A DNA stretch of 64,000 nucleotides from Acidobacteriota bacterium. Its GTDB lineage: Bacteria > Acidobacteriota > Thermoanaerobaculia > UBA5066 > Gp7-AA6. Positions 23,599-60,442 of this stretch are shown here, piece by piece. The notes below the pieces were generated by a model. That model did no database searches. It saw only the letters and a program-made list of their open reading frames with translations, and was not told the DNA's origin. The DNA lies in the NCBI GenBank assembly GCA_027307335.1, contig DAHUXD010000064.1, positions 1 to 64,000 on the forward strand, read 5' to 3'. The position numbers and the translations under genes are program-made. Each line of letters begins with the position of its first letter. The stretch's first letter is position 1.

Positions 23599-23643
23599 TG
23601 GAGCGGGCAACCGGGATCGAACCGGCGACATCCAGCTTGGGAA
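23599..23643 (-). tRNA. 3' fragment of tRNA-Gly(CCC), attachment site remnant
   Basis: On the minus strand these 45 bases run from the anticodon loop TTCCCAA through the 3' anticodon stem (GCTGG), the T-arm (GCCGG-TTCGATC-CCGGT) and the acceptor strand (TGCCCGC) with discriminator T and encoded CCA. The matching 5' half, which should begin GCGGGCA and include CCAGC before the loop, is absent: the bases beyond 23,643 share nothing with it. A cut exactly at the anticodon loop is the classic crossover place of tyrosine-recombinase elements. It is read as the distal att site; the reconstituted intact tRNA should lie past the far end of the element. Confidence 0.88.
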
Positions 23644-23734
23644 TAGGAGCCGAGGCTTCGGGATATTTCCGTACGCTTCCGCATCAACCACTTAGAGCCC
23701 ATCACCGAGCGTCCTGAAGCCTCCCCGAGCATCC

Positions 23735-23767
23735 TTTGAACCCCGTTTGAACTCTCCGTTGAACTCT
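23735..23767. repeat. Three phased TTGAAC direct repeats near the att site
   Basis: TTGAAC occurs at 23736-23741, 23747-23752 and 23759-23764, at 11- and 12-base steps (about one helix turn). The last two share the longer core GTT(T)GAACTCT. About 100 bases inside an att site this resembles arm-type integrase or excisionase binding sites. No protein evidence is available. Confidence 0.5.
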
Positions 23768-23785
23768 TCCTCGTATACCACGCCC

Positions 23786-23799
23786 CTCTATATATAGAG
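23786..23799. promoter_or_regulatory. 14-base perfect palindrome CTCTATATATAGAG
   Basis: A perfect AT-centred palindrome in a GC-rich context, 143 bases inside the element end. A near copy (TCTATATGTAGAGA, 13 of 14 matching in the shifted frame) lies just before the first RuvC-like gene at 59,547-59,560. It may be a regulator or recombinase site. Confidence 0.4.
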
Positions 23800-23821
23800 A
23801 AGGTCCTCGCCCGCCTCCGAC

Positions 23822-24041
23822 TCCGTTTCGAACCTCTCGGTAGCTGATTGACACCCAGCGTTCACCCTTCGCGCGGCAGCTCGATAGGCGAGCTCGCATG
23901 ACGGAAGGAGTTGGCCCTGCAGACGATCACCGTTTCCATCCAGGGAGGTTTGAGCGTTGCCCAAAGCCTACAGCTCGATGCCGCCGCCGCCCTCCCACTA
24001 TTCGTCAATCTGAAGATCGTTCTTCGGGGCGCCCAGGAGCG
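23822..24041 (+). repeat. Duplicated leader-plus-module block, copy A
   Basis: This block aligns without gaps, at an offset of 1,187 bases, to 25,009-25,228. It contains a leader with a 6-bp hairpin (23,878-23,894: AGCTCG-ATAGG-CGAGCT), a purine-rich ribosome site (AAGGAG) and the first ~40 codons of the methyltransferase frame (TITVSIQGG... LPLF... LK.VL). Hairpin arms differ between the copies yet both pair perfectly (TA pair here, CG in copy B). Confidence 0.75.
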
Positions 24042-25002
24042 CCGACCCGACATTTCAGCAAGCCCGCTGCCAAGCGACTTACTGAACAGAGTGATCCATG
24101 GCGACTGCCTGACTGTCATGAAGCGCCTGCCCGATGAATGTGTCGACTGCGTCGTGACAAGCCCTCCTTACTTCGGGCTTCGCGACTACGGAGCAGATGG
24201 ACAGATTGGCCTCGAGGAGACGCCCGACATGTACACCCGGAGGTTGGTTGAACTCTTCCGAGAAGTCAGAAGAGTTCTCAAGACCGAAGGCACCCTGTGG
24301 CTGAACCTTGGCGATAGCTACGCGGCCGGCGGAAACGGTGGGCACGGAAAGAAACAGCAGAGCAACCGTGGGACGCGGGCGATAGCCGGTACGGCGAAGA
24401 AGGCGCCCGCCGGCTTGAAGCCGAAGGATCTCGTCGGCATCCCGTGGCGCGTGGCTTTCGCCCTCCAGGCCGATGGCTGATATCTGCGGCAAGACATCAT
24501 CTGGGTGAAGCCGAACCCCATGCCCGAGTCCGTTACCGATCGCTGCACGAAGAGCCACGAGTATGTCTTCTTGCTTGCGAAGAGCAGGAGCTATTTCTAC
24601 GACAACGACGCGATCCGAGAGCCGCTAAAGGAAGTCTCGATCTTGAGAACGAAATATGGATGGCACGGTAAGGGAGATCATGGCCAAGGAAATTACGCAG
24701 GGTTGCGGCATATGGAAGTGATGGGTGCGCGGTTTGCGAATCCGAAGGGTCGAAATAAGCGCTCCGTCTGGAATGTGAATCCGAAGCCCTTCCGTGGCGC
24801 CCACTTCGCCACTTTTCCCGAGGGTCTCGTCACCCCAATGATTCTGGCCGGGTGCCCAAGAGGTGGGCTCGTTCTCGACCCGTTCATCGGCGCGGGCACG
24901 ACGGCTGTCGCGGCAAGACGGCTCGGGCGAAATTATCTCGGAATCGAGCTGAACCCTGAGTACATCGAGATCGCGGAGCGGCGACTCGCAGCGTCAGCGT
25001 AA
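23911..25002 (+). pseudogene. Beta-class DNA methyltransferase, interrupted by one in-frame TGA
   Basis: A site-specific DNA methyltransferase (adenine-N6 or cytosine-N4). The catalytic motif is TSPPYFGLRDYG; the SAM-binding motif comes late (LDPFIGAGTTAVAARRLG, then NYLGIELNPEYIEIAERR), the beta-class order. A single TGA at 24,478-24,480 splits it where relatives have Trp in the context ADG-W-YLRQDIIW; reading resumes in the same frame with intact motifs. TGG encodes Trp elsewhere in the same frame, so general UGA recoding is unlikely. The first ~45 residues are not methyltransferase but the duplicated module. The alignment with copy B places the start at CTG 23,917; TTG 23,911 is an alternative. 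No restriction enzyme gene is adjacent. It could be a point mutation or a sequencing error. Confidence 0.82.
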
Positions 25003-25008
25003 TCCCAT

Positions 25009-25228
25009 TCCGTTTCGAGCGTCTCGGTCGTTCTTCCACACCCCGACTCCACACTCCGCGTCGCAGCCCGATAGTCGGGCTCGCAAGACGAAAGGAGTCG
25101 TGGTTGCACACGATCACGGTATCGATTCAGGGAGACGTCAGCGTCCAGGAGAGCGTCGAGGTGAGCGACGCCGAGGCGCTTCCGCTCTTTATCCGGCTGA
25201 AGTCGGTTCTCCAGGCGGAGGGAGCTGC
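25009..25228 (+). repeat. Duplicated leader-plus-module block, copy B
   Basis: Second copy, beginning 7 bases after the methyltransferase stop. Hairpin 25,065-25,081 is AGCCCG-ATAGT-CGGGCT, with the same AUAG loop start as copy A and a compensating base-pair change. It is followed by CTCGCA-A-GACG-A-AAGGAG and TTG 25,104. The leader and the first ~40 codons are conserved; the copies diverge after LK.VL. Confidence 0.75.
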
Positions 25229-25340
25229 CACGCCTGCTCGCCGCCGAGGACGGCCGCGCAAAGAGAGACCGGCCAGCGAGGGCGCCGGACATGACCCCCT
25301 TCCGCAGAATGGCGAAGCCGCTGAACCGAGCGAGGCTTGA
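25104..25340 (+). CDS. Small protein with duplicated N-terminal module and AT-hook-like tail
   Basis: A 78-residue protein not matching any family I know. Residues 1-40 (HTITVSIQGDVSV, then ALPLFIRLKSVLQ) are the same module that begins the methyltransferase frame. Residues ~46-56 contain RRRGRPRKERP, a textbook AT-hook core (GRP flanked by basic residues), so minor-groove DNA binding is plausible. The tail is acidic and low-complexity. TTG 25,104 is chosen because AAAGGAG lies 6 bases upstream and the aligned paralogue supports it. Its stop overlaps the next start (TGATG), making it the first gene of the 25.1-28.3 kb operon. Confidence 0.65.
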   Translation: MHTITVSIQGDVSVQESVEVSDAEALPLFIRLKSVLQAEGAATPARRRGRPRKERPASEGAGHDPLPQNGEAAEPSEA

Positions 25341-25612
25341 TGACGGCCGCCGTCGGGATCGTCTCATCGCTCCAGGTCGGGGGCGGCGGTGGAGGCGCCG
25401 CCTCGCCCAGAGCGCTCGACTGTCTGGGGCTCCTCCTCGCCCTCGTCGTTCTGCCGATCCTTGCGTATTGCTTTCTCAAGTTTCGAGGCTCTCTCAACCG
25501 CTCTGACAAAGCGAAGCCTGACTTCACGAGCATTCGCTCGATGGGCAAGACCATCGTCAGCGCCCCTCCACCGGATGACGACGACCTGAATCAATTCGGA
25601 GATGTGAATTGA
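25340..25612 (+). CDS. Small single-pass membrane protein
   Basis: A 90-residue protein. A Gly-rich N-terminus (QVGGGGGGAAS) leads into one membrane helix (LGLLLALVVLPILAYCFLKF, residues ~29-49), then a basic/polar cytoplasmic tail ending in acidic DDDDLNQFGD. It is coupled on both sides: TGATG with the gene before and a 4-base overlap with the ATPase after. The position next to a coupling-type ATPase suggests a membrane anchor or partner for it, but no family is recognised. Confidence 0.7.
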   Translation: MTAAVGIVSSLQVGGGGGGAASPRALDCLGLLLALVVLPILAYCFLKFRGSLNRSDKAKPDFTSIRSMGKTIVSAPPPDDDDLNQFGDVN

Positions 25613-27213
25613 ATCTTTCCCGCTCCTTCTTCAGGCTCTTTCGCCGCGAGCACAGCCGCCGCGCGGCGGATGAAGAACGACGGAGCGCCGGCGCGCCCGC
25701 CCGGGCGGCCGAGGCCGTCATCGAGGCAGCTCTGAACAGCCTCGGCGGCTCCTCCGCGATCCCGATCGGCACTACCGACTCGGGCAGAGTCCTCTCGGTC
25801 GATCATTCGACCCTCGTCTCGAGCGGCCTCGTCGTGGGCGCGACCGGAGCCGGAAAAAGCCGGTTTCTGGTTGGACTCATCCTCCAGCTCCTTGAGCGCC
25901 TCGCATCCGGCGTCGAAATCGAGCTCGTCGATCCGAAGTACGAAACTTACGATCTTCTGAGCCTCGCGCTCGCCGCCCTCTGGTTGAAGACGAGCCCCTG
26001 GAAACGGGACGAGCTCTCCTCGCGTATCCGGGTCATCGACTGGGCGCGCGACTGGATCACTCCTTCGGCGCCTTTCGAGCGGGTGAGCGCCGATGTCTCC
26101 GACGCCTACCTCGCGCGCCTCCGTGCCGACGTCGTCGTCCAGGCGAACGCCCGCGACTACACCGATGCCATGCGGCACGGCTACTTCATGCTCGGGCGCC
26201 TTCTCATCGAAAAGCAGTTCCCCATGAACCTGCGCTTCGTAACCAAGCTCTTCCGCGACGAGCCCTTTCGTCGCCGGATCTCCTCAGGGATCGCCGACCC
26301 GGACGTGCGCGAGTACTTTCGCGACCTGGACCGCAATCTCCCCAAGCAGACGAGCGAGGGACTGCTCCGCCGCATCCAGGAGGACTTCTCGTTCCCTGAG
26401 ATCCGGTACTCGGAAGGCATCCCGCCCGCGGCTCTGAGGAAGCTCGTACCAACGGGCGCGCCCGCAATCGTCCTCGGCAACTACAGCTCGCGCATGAGCC
26501 TCCCTCAGTCGAAGGCGATCGAGCGAGCGAACCACAGAATCGTCGACGTACTTCTGAAAGCCCCGCGCCGGAGTCAGCTCCGGCCGGGGCTTCTTCTTCT
26601 TGAAGAGTCCCCGGTGCTCCTCTCGCGCTCCTCAGAATTGATCGACCCCTTGACCACCGCCGCGCGAACTCTGCGCTCCGTCGGCATGGGCATCGTCCAC
26701 CTTGCGCAGGACTTCTCGAATGCGCTGCCCGCAGACCTCGTCCGGACGCTTGTCCTCAATTCCCGGTGGACTGCGATGTTTCGCGTGCGGGAGGACGCGG
26801 AGCTGATCTACCCCCACGTGCTCTGGCTCGACGAGCCGCAGAAAGCCATGCCGGAATCGGTCAAGCGAAAGGTCTTCGCAAAGACGATGGAGGGGCTTCC
26901 CCAGCGCCGCTTCTATTTCCATGCGAAGGGCTACCCCGCTCTCCCGGCTACGTCTCTCGAGGTCCAGGACTTCGCGCAATCTGCCGGCGTCTCGTCGGAT
27001 GACGAGCTGCGGGAGATCTTCAGCCGCGAGATCGCGTCCCGCTGGGTGATCCCGACCTCGCTCGCCGCACGGTTGATCGCCGAGTGGGAAGCCGAGGTCA
27101 TCGATCGAGCGGAAGTTGCGCCCTCCTCTCCAAAGGCAGGAGGGAAACGCCCGCACAAAAGCCTCTCCGACCTCCTGAGAGATCTCGGCAAAGACGAGGA
27201 GGCCCCGGAATGA
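25609..27213 (+). CDS. Type IV coupling protein-like/HerA-FtsK superfamily ATPase
   Basis: A 534-residue P-loop ATPase. Walker A is GATGAGKS (residues 77-84) and Walker B-like LLLLEESP lies near residue 332. After it come an Arg/sensor stretch (AARTLRSVGMGIVHLAQDF) and SRWTAMFRVREDAELI, the pattern of TraD/VirD4-like coupling ATPases and related HerA-type pumps that feed DNA to a conjugation channel. There are no N-terminal membrane helices; the preceding 90-residue membrane protein may supply the anchor. TTG 25,609 has GGAG upstream. The start overlaps the gene before by 4 bases and the stop overlaps the next gene (ATGA). It is probably cytoplasmic and hexameric. Confidence 0.75.
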   Translation: MNLSRSFFRLFRREHSRRAADEERRSAGAPARAAEAVIEAALNSLGGSSAIPIGTTDSGRVLSVDHSTLVSSGLVVGATGAGKSRFLVGLILQLLERLASGVEIELVDPKYETYDLLSLALAALWLKTSPWKRDELSSRIRVIDWARDWITPSAPFERVSADVSDAYLARLRADVVVQANARDYTDAMRHGYFMLGRLLIEKQFPMNLRFVTKLFRDEPFRRRISSGIADPDVREYFRDLDRNLPKQTSEGLLRRIQEDFSFPEIRYSEGIPPAALRKLVPTGAPAIVLGNYSSRMSLPQSKAIERANHRIVDVLLKAPRRSQLRPGLLLLEESPVLLSRSSELIDPLTTAARTLRSVGMGIVHLAQDFSNALPADLVRTLVLNSRWTAMFRVREDAELIYPHVLWLDEPQKAMPESVKRKVFAKTMEGLPQRRFYFHAKGYPALPATSLEVQDFAQSAGVSSDDELREIFSREIASRWVIPTSLAARLIAEWEAEVIDRAEVAPSSPKAGGKRPHKSLSDLLRDLGKDEEAPE

Positions 27214-27533
27214 ACTTTCCATGGAAAGTAATCCTGCGCGCTTCGCTCATCGGCACGCTCTATGCCCTGGCCGCGCCGGTCTACATCGTCCTCGGAGCCG
27301 TACGCCTCAACCGCCTCTTCGAAGCGTTCGTGACGATACGCTCAGGGTGCCTCACCTGCATCCACTGCGGCCACGACAATGTCTTGAACCGCCTCGCGAC
27401 GTGCAACCGATGCCGCGCGACCGAGTACGGCTCGCTCCTCTATTGTTCCTTCTGCGGCCAGGTCTCGCGGTACCTGCCGTGCGGAGGGTGTGGCGTCACG
27501 CTTCGCGTCCTCCCGGGAGCGGGGGCGAAGTGA
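27210..27533 (+). CDS. Membrane-anchored double zinc-ribbon protein
   Basis: A 107-residue protein. One N-terminal membrane helix (LIGTLYALAAPVYIVLGAV, ~13-31) is followed by four Cys pairs: CLTCIHC, CNRC, CSFC and CGGC, i.e. two zinc ribbons. The start overlaps the ATPase stop (ATGA) and the stop overlaps the next start (GTGA), so it belongs to the same operon. Zinc ribbons of this style often mediate protein or nucleic-acid contacts; its role in the transfer cluster is unknown. Confidence 0.7.
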   Translation: MNFPWKVILRASLIGTLYALAAPVYIVLGAVRLNRLFEAFVTIRSGCLTCIHCGHDNVLNRLATCNRCRATEYGSLLYCSFCGQVSRYLPCGGCGVTLRVLPGAGAK

Positions 27534-28321
27534 AGGACCCCCGACAGGCGCATCGGGCGTTGAAGCGAGACCTCGAGGCGGGAGCCTGGATCGGAAGGGG
27601 CTACGAAGTCGCTCAGTACCAGCTCCACGAGGCCGTCTTTTTCGGCAAGTCGCCGGTCGTCGTCTCGCGCTTCACGAAAAGGTGGCGCGAGCGCGGATAT
27701 CTCTTCGTCGAGCGCTGGAACCGCGTCGGCATGAACCGTCTGCGGCTCACGTCCAAAGGCCGCGACTTCCTGCTGCTCCATGCCGCAGCCGACACTGAAG
27801 ACCTTTTTGTCCCCGCGCGAGCGGTGGCTCCCAAAGACCTCGCTCATCGGCTCTGGATTAACGACCTGCGTGTCGTGCTGGGACGCATGTCCCCGAAGCC
27901 CGAGCTCCTGCTGCCAGCGTGGGCACTGGAACGCCGCTTCGTCCCGCGCCTGCCGGCCATTCCCGATGTGCTCTCGGTAACACGCGGCGGCGCATCGACT
28001 AGAGCTCTAGCCGTCGAAGTGGACTTGGGCGGCGAGCCGCTTCGAAGCGTCTTTGTCCCGAAGCTCGCCGTTCTGCAGGACGTCCTCCAGGGCATGTCGA
28101 AGGAGGGCTCCGCCGCGATTCTTGTCTTGACCTCGAGCGACAGGCGGCGGGACACGATTGCCGCCTTGACCTCTAACCTCGATGGCTCGATTCCGATTGC
28201 CGTCGAAACGCTGCCCAGGGAGTGCGGCCGCGATGGTCTTCTCTCGCTCGAGCGGATGTTCAATCCAACCGTGAACCCGACTTCACAGCCCGAAGCGGAG
28301 AAGGCTCGATGTTTCAGCTAG
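27530..28321 (+). CDS. Replication-relaxation-like (Replic_Relax) winged-helix protein
   Basis: A 263-residue protein. The N-terminal half is a winged helix (VVVSRFTKRWRERGYLFVER, then NRLRLTSKGRDFLLLH). The second half contains LAHRLWINDLRVVLG and an acidic nuclease-fold-like strand (ALAVEVDLGGEPLRSV). Both features fit the replication-relaxation family carried by conjugative plasmids and ICEs next to TraD-like ATPases. Such proteins are thought to help nick or bind transfer DNA, though the activity is poorly established. GTG 27,530 overlaps the preceding stop. This is the last gene of the transfer-like operon; no recognisable relaxase (HUH motif) is present in the window. Confidence 0.65.
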   Translation: MKDPRQAHRALKRDLEAGAWIGRGYEVAQYQLHEAVFFGKSPVVVSRFTKRWRERGYLFVERWNRVGMNRLRLTSKGRDFLLLHAAADTEDLFVPARAVAPKDLAHRLWINDLRVVLGRMSPKPELLLPAWALERRFVPRLPAIPDVLSVTRGGASTRALAVEVDLGGEPLRSVFVPKLAVLQDVLQGMSKEGSAAILVLTSSDRRRDTIAALTSNLDGSIPIAVETLPRECGRDGLLSLERMFNPTVNPTSQPEAEKARCFS

Positions 28322-29304: not shown

Positions 29305-30420
29305 TCAGGGAGAAGACCGGCGGCTATGGTCGATACATCGGACGCGACGCCCGCCGGGGAGCTCCCACCAGCCGTCGATGCATCCGCTCCCAACCGTTGC
29401 GCGATGCACAGGCGTCGACCGAAGGCGCCAGGGCTCGTTCACTGAGCTCGCGGATTCACTCTCCCAGACCGCCTGCCATAACCCCCGATTCTGCGGCGTC
29501 TCCCACGTACCCCGAATTCGCTCTGAGGACACGTCGGAAGCGACCAGGGTCATCGAAAACTCTTTTCGCTCACATCTTTTGTTGAGCGCGACGGTCAATT
29601 CCGTCACGGAACCACGAATCGTCGCCCGCCAGATTCTTCTGTCGTGGGTTTCTGTCGAGAACCCTGAAATCTCGTCTCCGCGTTGCTCAAGACGCATGAC
29701 GAACGGCACCCTCGTACCGAACCAATCGAAGCTGCCCCGCCATTTCCCGGAGAGATGAACCGGACGGAGAGATTGGGTCGGCTCCGGTGCGGACGGCGTC
29801 GGCTCTGACGCGACAGGAGTCGGTGTCGGCGTGGGCGGCTCCGGTTCTCGCGTGGGCGTCGGCACGGGGATAGTCGGCGTTTGTTCAGGGGTCACCGGAA
29901 CTGCCGTGGGTTCCTTCTCCCTCTCGACGGCCTCAGCTCGTCCCGGCGGAGAGATGCTCTGCGCCTGCTCAGTCGATGCCCTGTGGCAAGCCACATAGGA
30001 AACGAGAGCCAGAACCACAATGGCGCCCGCGGCAGCTCCGCCGACGAGCACGCCGCGTAAAAAGAACAGGTATCGATAGGCGCCTTGCGCCGAGGGCGGA
30101 GGCGCCGCGGCCTGTGCCCCGGCCGAGCTCGAAAACCCTGACGGGGGAGGAGGCGGTGGAGCACTAGCCCCGGTGGAACTGAAGCCCGAGGTTGCACCGG
30201 CCTTCCGACTCTGACCCAAGTCATAGTCGTAGATCTGCCGGCGGCTGGGATCTCCGAGAACCTGATAAGCGAGATTGATCTCCTTGAACTTCTCCTCGGC
30301 GCCCTTTCTCTTGTTTCGGTCGGGGTGGTACTTCTTCGCGAGCCGGCGATACGAGCGCTTGATCTCGTCCTGGGTCGCCGCTTCGGAGACCTCGAGAGTC
30401 TCGTAGTGAGTGCGGCTCAC
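29305..30420 (-). CDS. Membrane-anchored J-domain (DnaJ-like) protein
   Basis: A 371-residue protein. Residues 1-70 are a J-domain ([23 protein letters not shown] at 32-34, [20 protein letters not shown]) able to recruit Hsp70 and stimulate its ATPase. A Pro/Ser linker and one membrane helix ([20 protein letters not shown], ~128-150) follow, then a Pro/Thr spacer and a ~110-residue beta-rich C-terminal domain ([20 protein letters not shown], then [15 protein letters not shown]) that I do not recognise. The start overlaps the VWA gene stop by 4 bases. The J-domain faces the cytoplasm and the beta domain the other side. Confidence 0.82.
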
Positions 30421-31142
30421 TTCGAGCTCGAGGTCCTCGCCGGCAGAAGCCGAGCCGCGGAGGAGATGGCGACTTCGAGCTCGCTGTCGGCAACCGTCGT
30501 CGCGAGGCCGGAGGCCGTCGCGAGCTTCTTCAAGAAGTCATCGTCGGCGTCATGGGTGCCGATCGCGATGATCGTGATGTCATGCCGCTTCGCCTCCCTG
30601 GCTGCGGCGAGTGCGGAGTCGGCGCTGTCGGGATAGCCGTCGGTCACGAGAACGATCGCGCGGGGGCCTTGCCGGTCTGCGAGCTTTGAGCCGGCTAGGT
30701 TGATCGCGGCGGCCATGTTCGTTGTCGCCTGAAGTCCGACCTCGGAGAGTCCGGAGCGGATCGGGGGAAGGCTCGTCGTCGGATTGGTCCGAACTGAGGC
30801 CCAGCTCGAGAAGTGGACGATGCCGACCGCATAGCCCTTTCCGATCGCGTCCTCGGCAAAGGAAAGACCGCCGTCTTTCGCCTGGCGGAGCTTCGCCTCG
30901 TCCATGCTGGCGGAGATGTCGAGGAGCAGGTACACGGTTGCACGACCGGTAGCCTCGGGCGTTGGAGTGCTTAGTGCCCGCGAAGGCGGGACGGAGCGTT
31001 CGATGGCGGAGCTTCCTCGCGCTTCGCCCGGCGCTGTGAGCAGGCGATCGAGAATGGTTTGAAGTCCTTTCATGGCGGGAAGCATGCGGTCCACCCTGCC
31101 TTTCGAACCCGAGGCCATCGAAATGGCCAAGGGCTCCAGCAA
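30417..31142 (-). CDS. von Willebrand factor A-domain protein
   Basis: A 241-residue VWA protein with a complete MIDAS metal site: DISAS (75-79) after YLLL, Thr in [12 protein letters not shown] (~141), and Asp in [12 protein letters not shown] (168). No signal peptide or membrane helix, so it is cytosolic. It is translationally coupled to the J-domain protein (ATGA). VWA proteins often scaffold chaperone-like AAA+ complexes, and VWA/chaperone pairs occur in bacterial conflict systems; here the partner is a J-protein. The start is uncertain: ATG 31,142, or the internal Met of MKGLQ (~31,073), neither with a strong ribosome site. Confidence 0.8.
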
Positions 31143-59561: not shown

Positions 59562-60101
59562 TCATGCCGCCTCGACGAGGACCGACTCGGTGCGCTTCGG
59601 CAGTCTTTCGAAGTACGTGACTGCGAGGGATGTCGCATCGAAGAGATTCATGCGCTCGTCCTCGCTCTCGTAGCACTTTCGCTCATCCGGAAGGCGCGGA
59701 GAGAGCTCGGGATATCGCCTGGCGAGTTCCGCGGCGATCGAGTGCTTCGTCGGCCGGCGGAGGGCGGGAAACACTCCTCTTACATCCCGGCGGGAGAATG
59801 CCCGGTGGTGAATACCGCACGAGAGCGCCAGCGCTTCGATGCTCCGGATGAGGGCACGGACCCGCGGCTTTCGGTGCGAACCGGCGCCGTCGTAGTCTTC
59901 AAGAACGATGACCTCGGGATCGTACCGGGCGACAAGGTCTCGGATCCTGGCCATGCACTTCGGATTCTTCTTATCCTGCCTTACCTGGCTTAACCCCCAC
60001 TCGATGAGAAGGTCGGGTCCCTCGAACACGGTGTAGGCAAAGCCCCTCGTCGTCGGGTCGATCGCGAGAACCCTCGGGTATGTTGAGTGGCCTCCGATCA
60101 T
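59562..60101 (-). CDS. RuvC/RNase H-fold nuclease-like protein, second of pair
   Basis: A 179-residue paralogue-like protein: Asp15 in VLAIDPTTRGFAYTVFE, Glu68/Asp69 in VIVLEDYDGAG, Asp155 in MNLFDATSLAVTYF. Overall fold is as in the other RuvC-like protein, but the helix motifs differ, so the two have diverged and may act as a heteromer or on different DNA branches. The ATG overlaps the XRE regulator stop (ATGA). Confidence 0.72.
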   Translation of the reverse strand: MIGGHSTYPRVLAIDPTTRGFAYTVFEGPDLLIEWGLSQVRQDKKNPKCMARIRDLVARYDPEVIVLEDYDGAGSHRKPRVRALIRSIEALALSCGIHHRAFSRRDVRGVFPALRRPTKHSIAAELARRYPELSPRLPDERKCYESEDERMNLFDATSLAVTYFERLPKRTESVLVEAA

Positions 60102-60442
60102 TGCGTGATGGTTCTCCGAAGGACTGCGGCGATCGACTGAAGCCTCTGCAGGATCGAAGGAGTCTCGGGTTTCGCCGAGAGCCGCCGACGGAGGAACGCG
60201 GCACGGCGCCGGACAGACCTTCTCGCCTTCGCAAAGCGTCCCGCAAAGAGCTCGCGGGGCGGAATGCCAAAGACCGCCTCATAGGCAAGCGCCGTGTCAA
60301 GGCTCGGCTGCCGGCCGCCCCGCTCGTAGCGGGAAACTTTCGCGCCGTCCCGCGTGCCGAGTAGGTATGCCAATTCATCCTGGGAGAAACCGGATCGCTT
60401 GCGATACGTCCGCAGATAGTTGTCCAGCTTGTGGACGGCCAT
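60098..60442 (-). CDS. XRE-family transcriptional regulator
   Basis: A 114-residue DNA-binding protein. Cro/C1-type helix-turn-helix at ~5-60 (LRTYRKRSGFSQDELAYLLG, then VSRYERGGRQPSL), and a C-terminal Arg-rich helical tail. It is coupled to the second RuvC-like gene. It probably represses the module promoters (59,000 and 60,640). No Shine-Dalgarno is visible before ATG 60,442, so expression may be low. Confidence 0.85.
   Translation of the reverse strand: MAVHKLDNYLRTYRKRSGFSQDELAYLLGTRDGAKVSRYERGGRQPSLDTALAYEAVFGIPPRELFAGRFAKARRSVRRRAAFLRRRLSAKPETPSILQRLQSIAAVLRRTITQ

Follow-up and report, generated by a model that had tools for sequence, protein, structure and literature searches.

A duplicated leader predicted to hide its ribosome-binding site at the left end of an integrated element from an Acidobacteriota bacterium

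An integrated element in an Acidobacteriota genome carries two copies of a 5' leader: the duplication is old, the leader has stayed conserved, folding predicts that it occludes the Shine-Dalgarno site beyond what is seen in controls, and a comparable arrangement occurs in related elements. One copy (copy 2) apparently heads the transfer operon of the element, and the other (copy 1) precedes a broken DNA methyltransferase gene. We would give an even chance to the reading that the occluded ribosome site gates the element's first transfer gene and was reused, by duplication, for a captured methyltransferase. The features are collected in Table 1 with their positions in the window, that is, the whole 64,000-base stretch of DNA analyzed, which comprises bases 1-64000 of a 100,898-base contig.

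Table 1. Features at the left end of the element, with positions in the window
Feature	Position	Strand	Basis
Left attachment site: 45-bp exact repeat of tRNA-Gly 3' end	23599..23643	.	exact-repeat match
GTTTGAACTC-like repeats, possible integrase arm sites (putative function)	23743..23768	+	
Box, copy 1: 18/20 identical to copy 2	23822..23841	+	alignment
Hairpin and Shine-Dalgarno, copy 1 (inner stem 23878-23883/23889-23894, loop 23884-23888)	23866..23910	+	RNA folding
Module fused to N6_N4_Mtase (PF01555)	23911..25002	+	in-frame TGA at 24478-24480
Module, copy 1 (39 codons)	23917..24033	+	alignment
Box, copy 2	25009..25028	+	alignment
Hairpin and Shine-Dalgarno, copy 2 (inner stem 25065-25070/25076-25081, loop 25071-25075)	25049..25103	+	RNA folding
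78-aa small protein, native home of the module	25104..25340	+	ORF; predicted two strands and helix, disordered tail
91-aa membrane-type ORF (type judged from sequence), overlapping the stop of the small gene	25337..25612	+	
FtsK-like ATPase (PF01580), overlapping the stop of the preceding ORF	25609..27213	+	25.1 vs cut-off 24 bits
ORF with Replic_Relax domain (PF13814; residues 134-290)	27221..28321	+	26.2 vs cut-off 25.3 bits

The blocks 23822-24041 and 25009-25228 align without gaps at an offset of 1,187, as the preliminary description of this DNA had reported; 143/220 positions are identical, as against 8/20 and 5/20 in the flanking blocks. Within them lie the two hairpins recorded there, AGCTCG-ATAGG-CGAGCT (23878-23894) and AGCCCG-ATAGT-CGGGCT (25065-25081), which have six perfect pairs each and differ by a compensating change in the stem, one pair being altered on both sides (U-A in one, C-G in the other). 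At up to 3 mismatches, the 21-nt pattern made up of the hairpin and 4 further nt matches just these two places in the window, while 100 shuffles gave a mean of 0.07 matches, with one shuffle reaching 2. The chance that two random changes among the 12 stem positions would hit one pair and compensate is ~0.03, for a pair chosen post hoc.

Over its 95 nt the leader is identical at 70 positions (74%), distributed as 18/20 in the box, 14/25 in the middle part, 37/45 in the hairpin plus Shine-Dalgarno and 1/5 in the last five positions. The modules that follow agree at 22/39 residues and 57/78 first plus second codon positions, and at 15/39 third codon positions and 5/14 four-fold sites. The silent sites are therefore near saturation and the duplication is old, which excludes a recent or slipped duplication; nothing was found to support a transposon end. 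Judged from the aligned codons, both copies of the module were kept as protein. The leader is more conserved than the third codon positions (Fisher p 1.7e-4) and the four-fold sites (0.010), and the box plus hairpin more than the remaining leader (p 8e-4, for islands picked after viewing the alignment). Since the leader is conserved while third positions are near saturation, parts of it appear to have been under selection since the old duplication.

The predicted folds extend beyond the inner hairpins to the ribosome-binding site. In copy 1 the outer pairs 23866-23870/23904-23908 (CCUUC/GAAGG) reach the Shine-Dalgarno AAGGAG (23905-23910), and in copy 2 the outer pairs 25053-25057/25094-25098 (ACUCC/GGAGU) and 25049-25052/25100-25103 (CCAC/GUGG) cover the Shine-Dalgarno GAAAGGAG (25090-25097). 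The anti-Shine-Dalgarno of the organism is assumed here, as the assembly gave no match to a pattern of the 16S 3' end. Copy 2 (69 nt) is more stable than shuffles (z -3.96, 1/200 as stable); copy 1 alone is not (z -0.40, 61/200 as stable), and the 139-nt folds of both copies are moderate (z -1.80 and -1.43). The consensus fold of a 55-nt part is better than 989/1000 column shuffles; consensus folds of the whole leader, its first 45 nt and the module are without distinction, with 166/1000, 462/1000 and 635/1000 shuffles as good. Among the 14 pairs in the shared register, one is changed on both sides and one to G-U, so that in place of several independently compensated pairs across homologs there is one such pair in two sequences. 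The suggestion in the preliminary description that the stems reflect selection on RNA structure is supported in part: selection on the leader by its conservation, and a structural role by the extended fold covering the Shine-Dalgarno and by the counterparts in related elements. The covariation on which it was based is thin.

For the window leaders and those of related elements, we computed an opening cost, defined as the free energy required to expose GGAG in a segment of 80 nt upstream plus 12 nt of the gene, and compared it with 300 shuffles. The simpler measure, mean accessibility of the Shine-Dalgarno, gave ranks from 4/500 to 428/500 and is a poor one, for which reason the opening cost was used instead. 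Copy 2 costs 8.9 kcal/mol to open (5/300 shuffles as high), and the leaders at L005 and L015 12.5 (3/300) and 11.4 kcal/mol (1/300): in these three, occlusion exceeds that of shuffles. The leader at L006 (7.4 kcal/mol, 22/300) is borderline to clear, those of copy 1 (5.9 kcal/mol, 26/300) and L009 (5.2 kcal/mol, 41/300) are borderline, and that at L027 shows no occlusion by this measure with 80 nt (1.9 kcal/mol, 204/300 and 208/300). Shortening the upstream part to 50 nt weakens the window leaders (copy 1 148/300 and 98/300, copy 2 50/300 and 21/300) and puts L009 at chance (150/300, 133/300). Combined, the seven leaders, which are not independent of each other, give p from 7e-5 to 2e-3 over the four settings tried. 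The 65 control rows, drawn from the same loci and having a GGAG site, show a median cost of 3.5, a maximum of 8.7 and flat shuffle ranks; some of their starts are wrong because they were chosen by the presence of GGAG, and two of them, L013:7289 (small gene of L006, cost 7.4) and L013:13018 (cost 5.5), belong to this leader type. All 65 are exceeded by L005, L015 and, barely, copy 2, which makes three of the seven leaders. In L005 the predicted fold is CCGUCCUCC-caucgaaa-GGAGGACGG, immediately upstream of the start, and that of L015 is similar; the Shine-Dalgarno of L006 has a different, weaker pairing partner. The leaders of the same gene in three related elements are also predicted to hide the ribosome site.

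The operon that copy 2 appears to head begins with the small protein, the membrane-type ORF and the FtsK-like ATPase, whose reading frames overlap end to start (TTGATG at 25337-25342, TTGA at 25609-25612), which would allow translational coupling. The ATPase also has a weak FtsK/SpoIIIE-like match in PHROGs (E 2.3e-6). The true start of the Replic_Relax ORF is uncertain, as up to 27533 it shares its first part with another ORF in a different frame. The same order of small protein, membrane-type ORF and FtsK-like gene is found at L005 (G342), at L006 and L009 (both G176) and at L015 (the G493 contig), the slot of the membrane-type ORF being taken in the related elements by an ORF of 128-138 aa, and at L018 another gene precedes the membrane-type ORF. 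Five related loci whose records are named come from metagenome assemblies labeled Thermoanaerobaculia, Acidobacteria or Acidobacteriota. The FtsK-like protein occurs in 11 of the 148 genomes of the class, and its profile in 6 of 396 genomes in a sample of the phylum, all inside the class; viral contigs contained no match to the profile, and plasmids none to the protein by tblastn. Just downstream of the transfer operon, on the opposite strand, a DnaJ-domain gene stands beside a vWA-domain gene (29305-31142).

The module had been described as beginning two unrelated proteins. The ORFs are indeed as described, one joining it to a methyltransferase (23911-24480) and the other being the 78-aa protein, which is better seen as the native home of the module than as an unrelated protein. 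The module stands at the start of one real small-protein gene, which recurs at the corresponding position in related elements, and of one fusion; nothing suggests a promiscuous domain. It is without a known family, as claimed, there being no match up to E 1 in Pfam, PHROGs or NCBIfam. For the small protein of the window, PDB yielded no profile match at E<=0.001 (the best, at E 0.01, is a repressor chain) and Foldseek on its model 0 matches at E<=0.001; its relative at L005 reaches E 0.05-0.09 at best in PHROGs. In the model (mean pLDDT 71.8, pTM 0.39), residues 2-42 are predicted to form two strands and a helix, with pLDDT 86-93 over the first 40 residues, followed by a disordered basic tail, from which one might guess at a role in nucleic acid binding. 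A profile of the small protein matches 9 of the 148 class genomes at E<=0.01, and the strong matches (E<=1e-11) are all sequences that were already rows of the alignment. Five weak places (E 5e-4 to 0.006) comprise four in genomes without a strong match and one in G342. Searched singly, the small protein is found in 5 of the 396 genomes of the phylum sample, in two of them weakly and in the tail only, and tblastn against phages gave none.

In copy 1 a CTG is aligned with the TTG start of copy 2, and an in-frame TTG lies two codons upstream, at 23911. From there the ORF runs to the TGA at 24480, and the remainder of the fused frame is open as 24505-25002; a real mutation or an assembly error would fit this stop equally. 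The methyltransferase domain starts near residue 59, so that about 58 residues are accounted for by the module and a linker. The second half shows ~46-54% identity to the ten best-listed phage and ten best-listed plasmid records and matches 10 of the 148 class genomes, the best other one at 46%. The protein resembles the site-specific DNA methyltransferases (PF01555) of phages and plasmids in this half and differs from them in its 58-residue N-terminal extension and the TGA break.

Both copies lie near one end of the element. The partner of the attachment repeat in Table 1 lies at contig 93679-93723, within an intact tRNA-Gly(CCC); adjoining this right end are a tyrosine integrase and a protein of the AlpA/HTH_17 kind; the G+C content per kb is 0.66-0.76 upstream of 23 kb and 0.57-0.66 beyond; and GTTTGAACTC-like repeats occur near both ends, with CCGTTTGAAC also near the right end at contig 93585. 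Together, the attachment repeats in tRNA-Gly, the integrase, the G+C shift and the end repeats place the duplicated leaders at the left end of a 70-kb integrated element. With attachment repeats at a tRNA, an integrase, a coupling-type ATPase and a relaxase candidate, it has the features of an integrative conjugative or mobilizable element, its mobility being predicted from its genes. The GTTTGAACTC repeats resemble the 20-nt box but differ from it by inserted bases, which bears on the box as a possible integrase arm site. A CsrA-type site was considered and dropped, and a LexA-type box was considered as well.

Leaders of a second kind, termed f2, are found in the related elements and share a box AGTTCGAC.. 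and an extended Shine-Dalgarno CGAAAGGAGG; they are predicted to occlude the site by pairing sequences other than those of the window leaders. In G176 the f2 box and CGAAAGGAGG occur again 5.7 kb further on (L013:12938-13019, G176:C36), ahead of a gene whose zinc-ribbon and vWA matches are weak (below cut-off) and which is followed by PP2C-phosphatase and FHA-kinase genes; here the prediction has the Shine-Dalgarno pairing in part with the first codons of its own gene and not with an upstream arm. Across the 148 genomes, the pattern AGTTCGAC-N(40-70)-CGAAAGGAGG matches 4 times, in 3 genomes, always in these loci and at places known beforehand, and its reversed control never matches. A loose two-part pattern gave 10 matches in 12 loci, six being leaders described here and the other four, which were set aside, lying at L012:8130 and L013:9411 within the FtsK gene, and at L014:9246 and L025:1063. 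As the window-type leader occurs twice and the f2 leader twice, two elements belonging to different families each use a two-part leader twice.

Further copies with paired changes in other genomes, whose absence the preliminary description had named as refuting it, have so far not turned up: a covariance model run over the 148 class genomes found no convincing one besides the window pair, the four additional matches having E 0.011 to 0.09, and over 17 loci the best other match (E 0.036) has broken pairs. It is this outcome that speaks most against a widespread RNA family. The exact hairpin pattern has 0 matches in the viral collection, and the view that the RNA belongs to no known family stands, with 0 Rfam matches at the gathering score in the 64-kb window. 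Among the papers listed, judged by titles and the starts of abstracts, none concerned this leader or the small protein.

In the reading that we put at even chances, the duplicated unit would consist of the 5' control region and the first ~40 codons of the first gene of the transfer operon. Its extended Shine-Dalgarno, folded into the hairpin, would leave the ribosome site closed by default, and the operon, with its first three frames overlapping at their ends, would be poorly translated until some factor opens the hairpin; the 20-nt upstream box is probably a transcriptional control site. An old second copy would have put a captured methyltransferase of phage/plasmid type under the same control by in-frame fusion to the module, the fused gene having been broken since. 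The translational control by the hairpin, the coupling by overlaps, the opening signal and the role of the box are what we infer in this scheme. If it is true, a little-studied group of elements of Acidobacteriota may hold its transfer genes off at translation; a captured gene would have been brought under control by duplicating a leader with the first 40 codons; and default-closed initiation would have been kept while the sequences of the pairing arms were replaced, a situation that ordinary covariation searches would miss. The small protein is an uncharacterized one that recurs as the first gene of these operons.

Dimer-binding DNA sites typically are inverted repeats whose changes are symmetric. 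The main rival holds that the conserved inverted repeat and the box are promoter or operator sites in the DNA for a repressor or activator encoded by the element, the RNA fold being a by-product. Such a palindromic site explains the paired change equally well, the box, the most conserved part, does not form a hairpin in both copies, and the element does encode an HTH regulator, an HTH_3 protein at 60098-60442. We nonetheless regard this as rather unlikely, as it does not account for a fold that extends to the Shine-Dalgarno in both copies, nor for the occlusion of the sites of related elements by unrelated pairing sequences.

Translational gating by the leader could also be cast more broadly, with the box and the occluded extended Shine-Dalgarno acting as a portable switch before several operons (transfer, methyltransferase and vWA/phosphatase/kinase) that are kept silent and are all opened at transfer by a signal specific to the element. 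This we hold to be unlikely; if it were true, mobile elements would have a new RNA-based regulon that conserves occlusion even as its pairing sequences are replaced.

Two further alternatives strike us as improbable. In one, the hairpin is where the module protein or some other protein binds the RNA to repress its own translation, and through the fusion the methyltransferase stays under that repressor. A small protein with a basic tail is encoded directly after the hairpin and the module remains attached to the leader in both copies, but the f2 leaders lack this hairpin sequence and yet encode a related protein, the start of the protein after the second G176 leader is not module-like, and Pfam, PHROGs and NCBIfam gave no match to an RNA-binding family. 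In the other, just as improbable, the leader and module are a neutral remnant, duplicated when the methyltransferase was acquired and alike through descent or occasional gene conversion. The broken methyltransferase and the CTG at the aligned start of copy 1 agree with this, whereas the near-saturated third positions stand against the 74% that the leader retains, in islands. Gene conversion could keep the leaders alike, but their scattered differences are unlike a conversion tract.

That the leader is a Frpo-type promoter in single-stranded DNA, working on the strand that enters during conjugation, is highly improbable. Orphan methyltransferases are reported, in the part of PMC11541004 drawn on here, to be prominent among leading-region functions, some leading-region genes being regulated by Frpo promoters. 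The orphan-type methyltransferase of the window and its structured sequence upstream of element genes recall the Frpo/ssi promoters described there, but the window leaders lack promoter hexamers (0 -35/-10-like pairs on either strand of 23600-25400, shuffles having a mean of 0.3, in a scan for sigma-70-type sites only), and the DNA fold of copy 1 is no improvement on shuffles (z 0.68, 0.50), that of copy 2 a moderate one (z -1.87, -2.12).

Leaders that hide the ribosome-binding site are known as a kind; what is unusual here is the reuse of one within a single element, once together with the first 40 codons, and also, on the predicted folds, the retention of occlusion while the partner sequences change. 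The erm mRNAs, with their inhibitory stem-loop, exemplify leaders in which a hairpin hides the ribosome-binding site. The window leader resembles them in its predicted local hairpin, which pairs the Shine-Dalgarno of the first gene. It differs in that no leader peptide, ligand or Rfam match was found for it, and in being reused before different genes of one element and copied with the first 40 codons.

As to the element, PMC5357655 describes integrative and mobilizable elements whose coupling proteins are FtsK-like (TcpA) or whose relaxases are of the PF13814/MobC kind. The window element shares with those in the portion of that account drawn on here the tyrosine integrase, the AlpA/HTH protein, the tRNA-Gly attachment repeats, the FtsK-like ATPase and the PF13814 protein, and is unlike them in its 70 kb and an extra TrwB-like ATPase. 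A pairing of TcpA with PF13814 was not found in streptococcal elements according to the same part of PMC5357655, and the window element has an FtsK-like ATPase and PF13814. The second coupling-type ATPase, besides the FtsK-like one at 25609, is a TrwB_AAD_bind protein (PF10412) encoded at contig 73870-75069 (L010:9870-11069). This element, which bears a tyrosine integrase, also encodes a large serine recombinase with Resolvase and Recombinase domains (contig 64390-66096, L010:390-2096). Finally, two small proteins encoded side by side look similar: that at 59032-59547 matches RuvC (PF02075), and that at 59562-60101 starts much alike.
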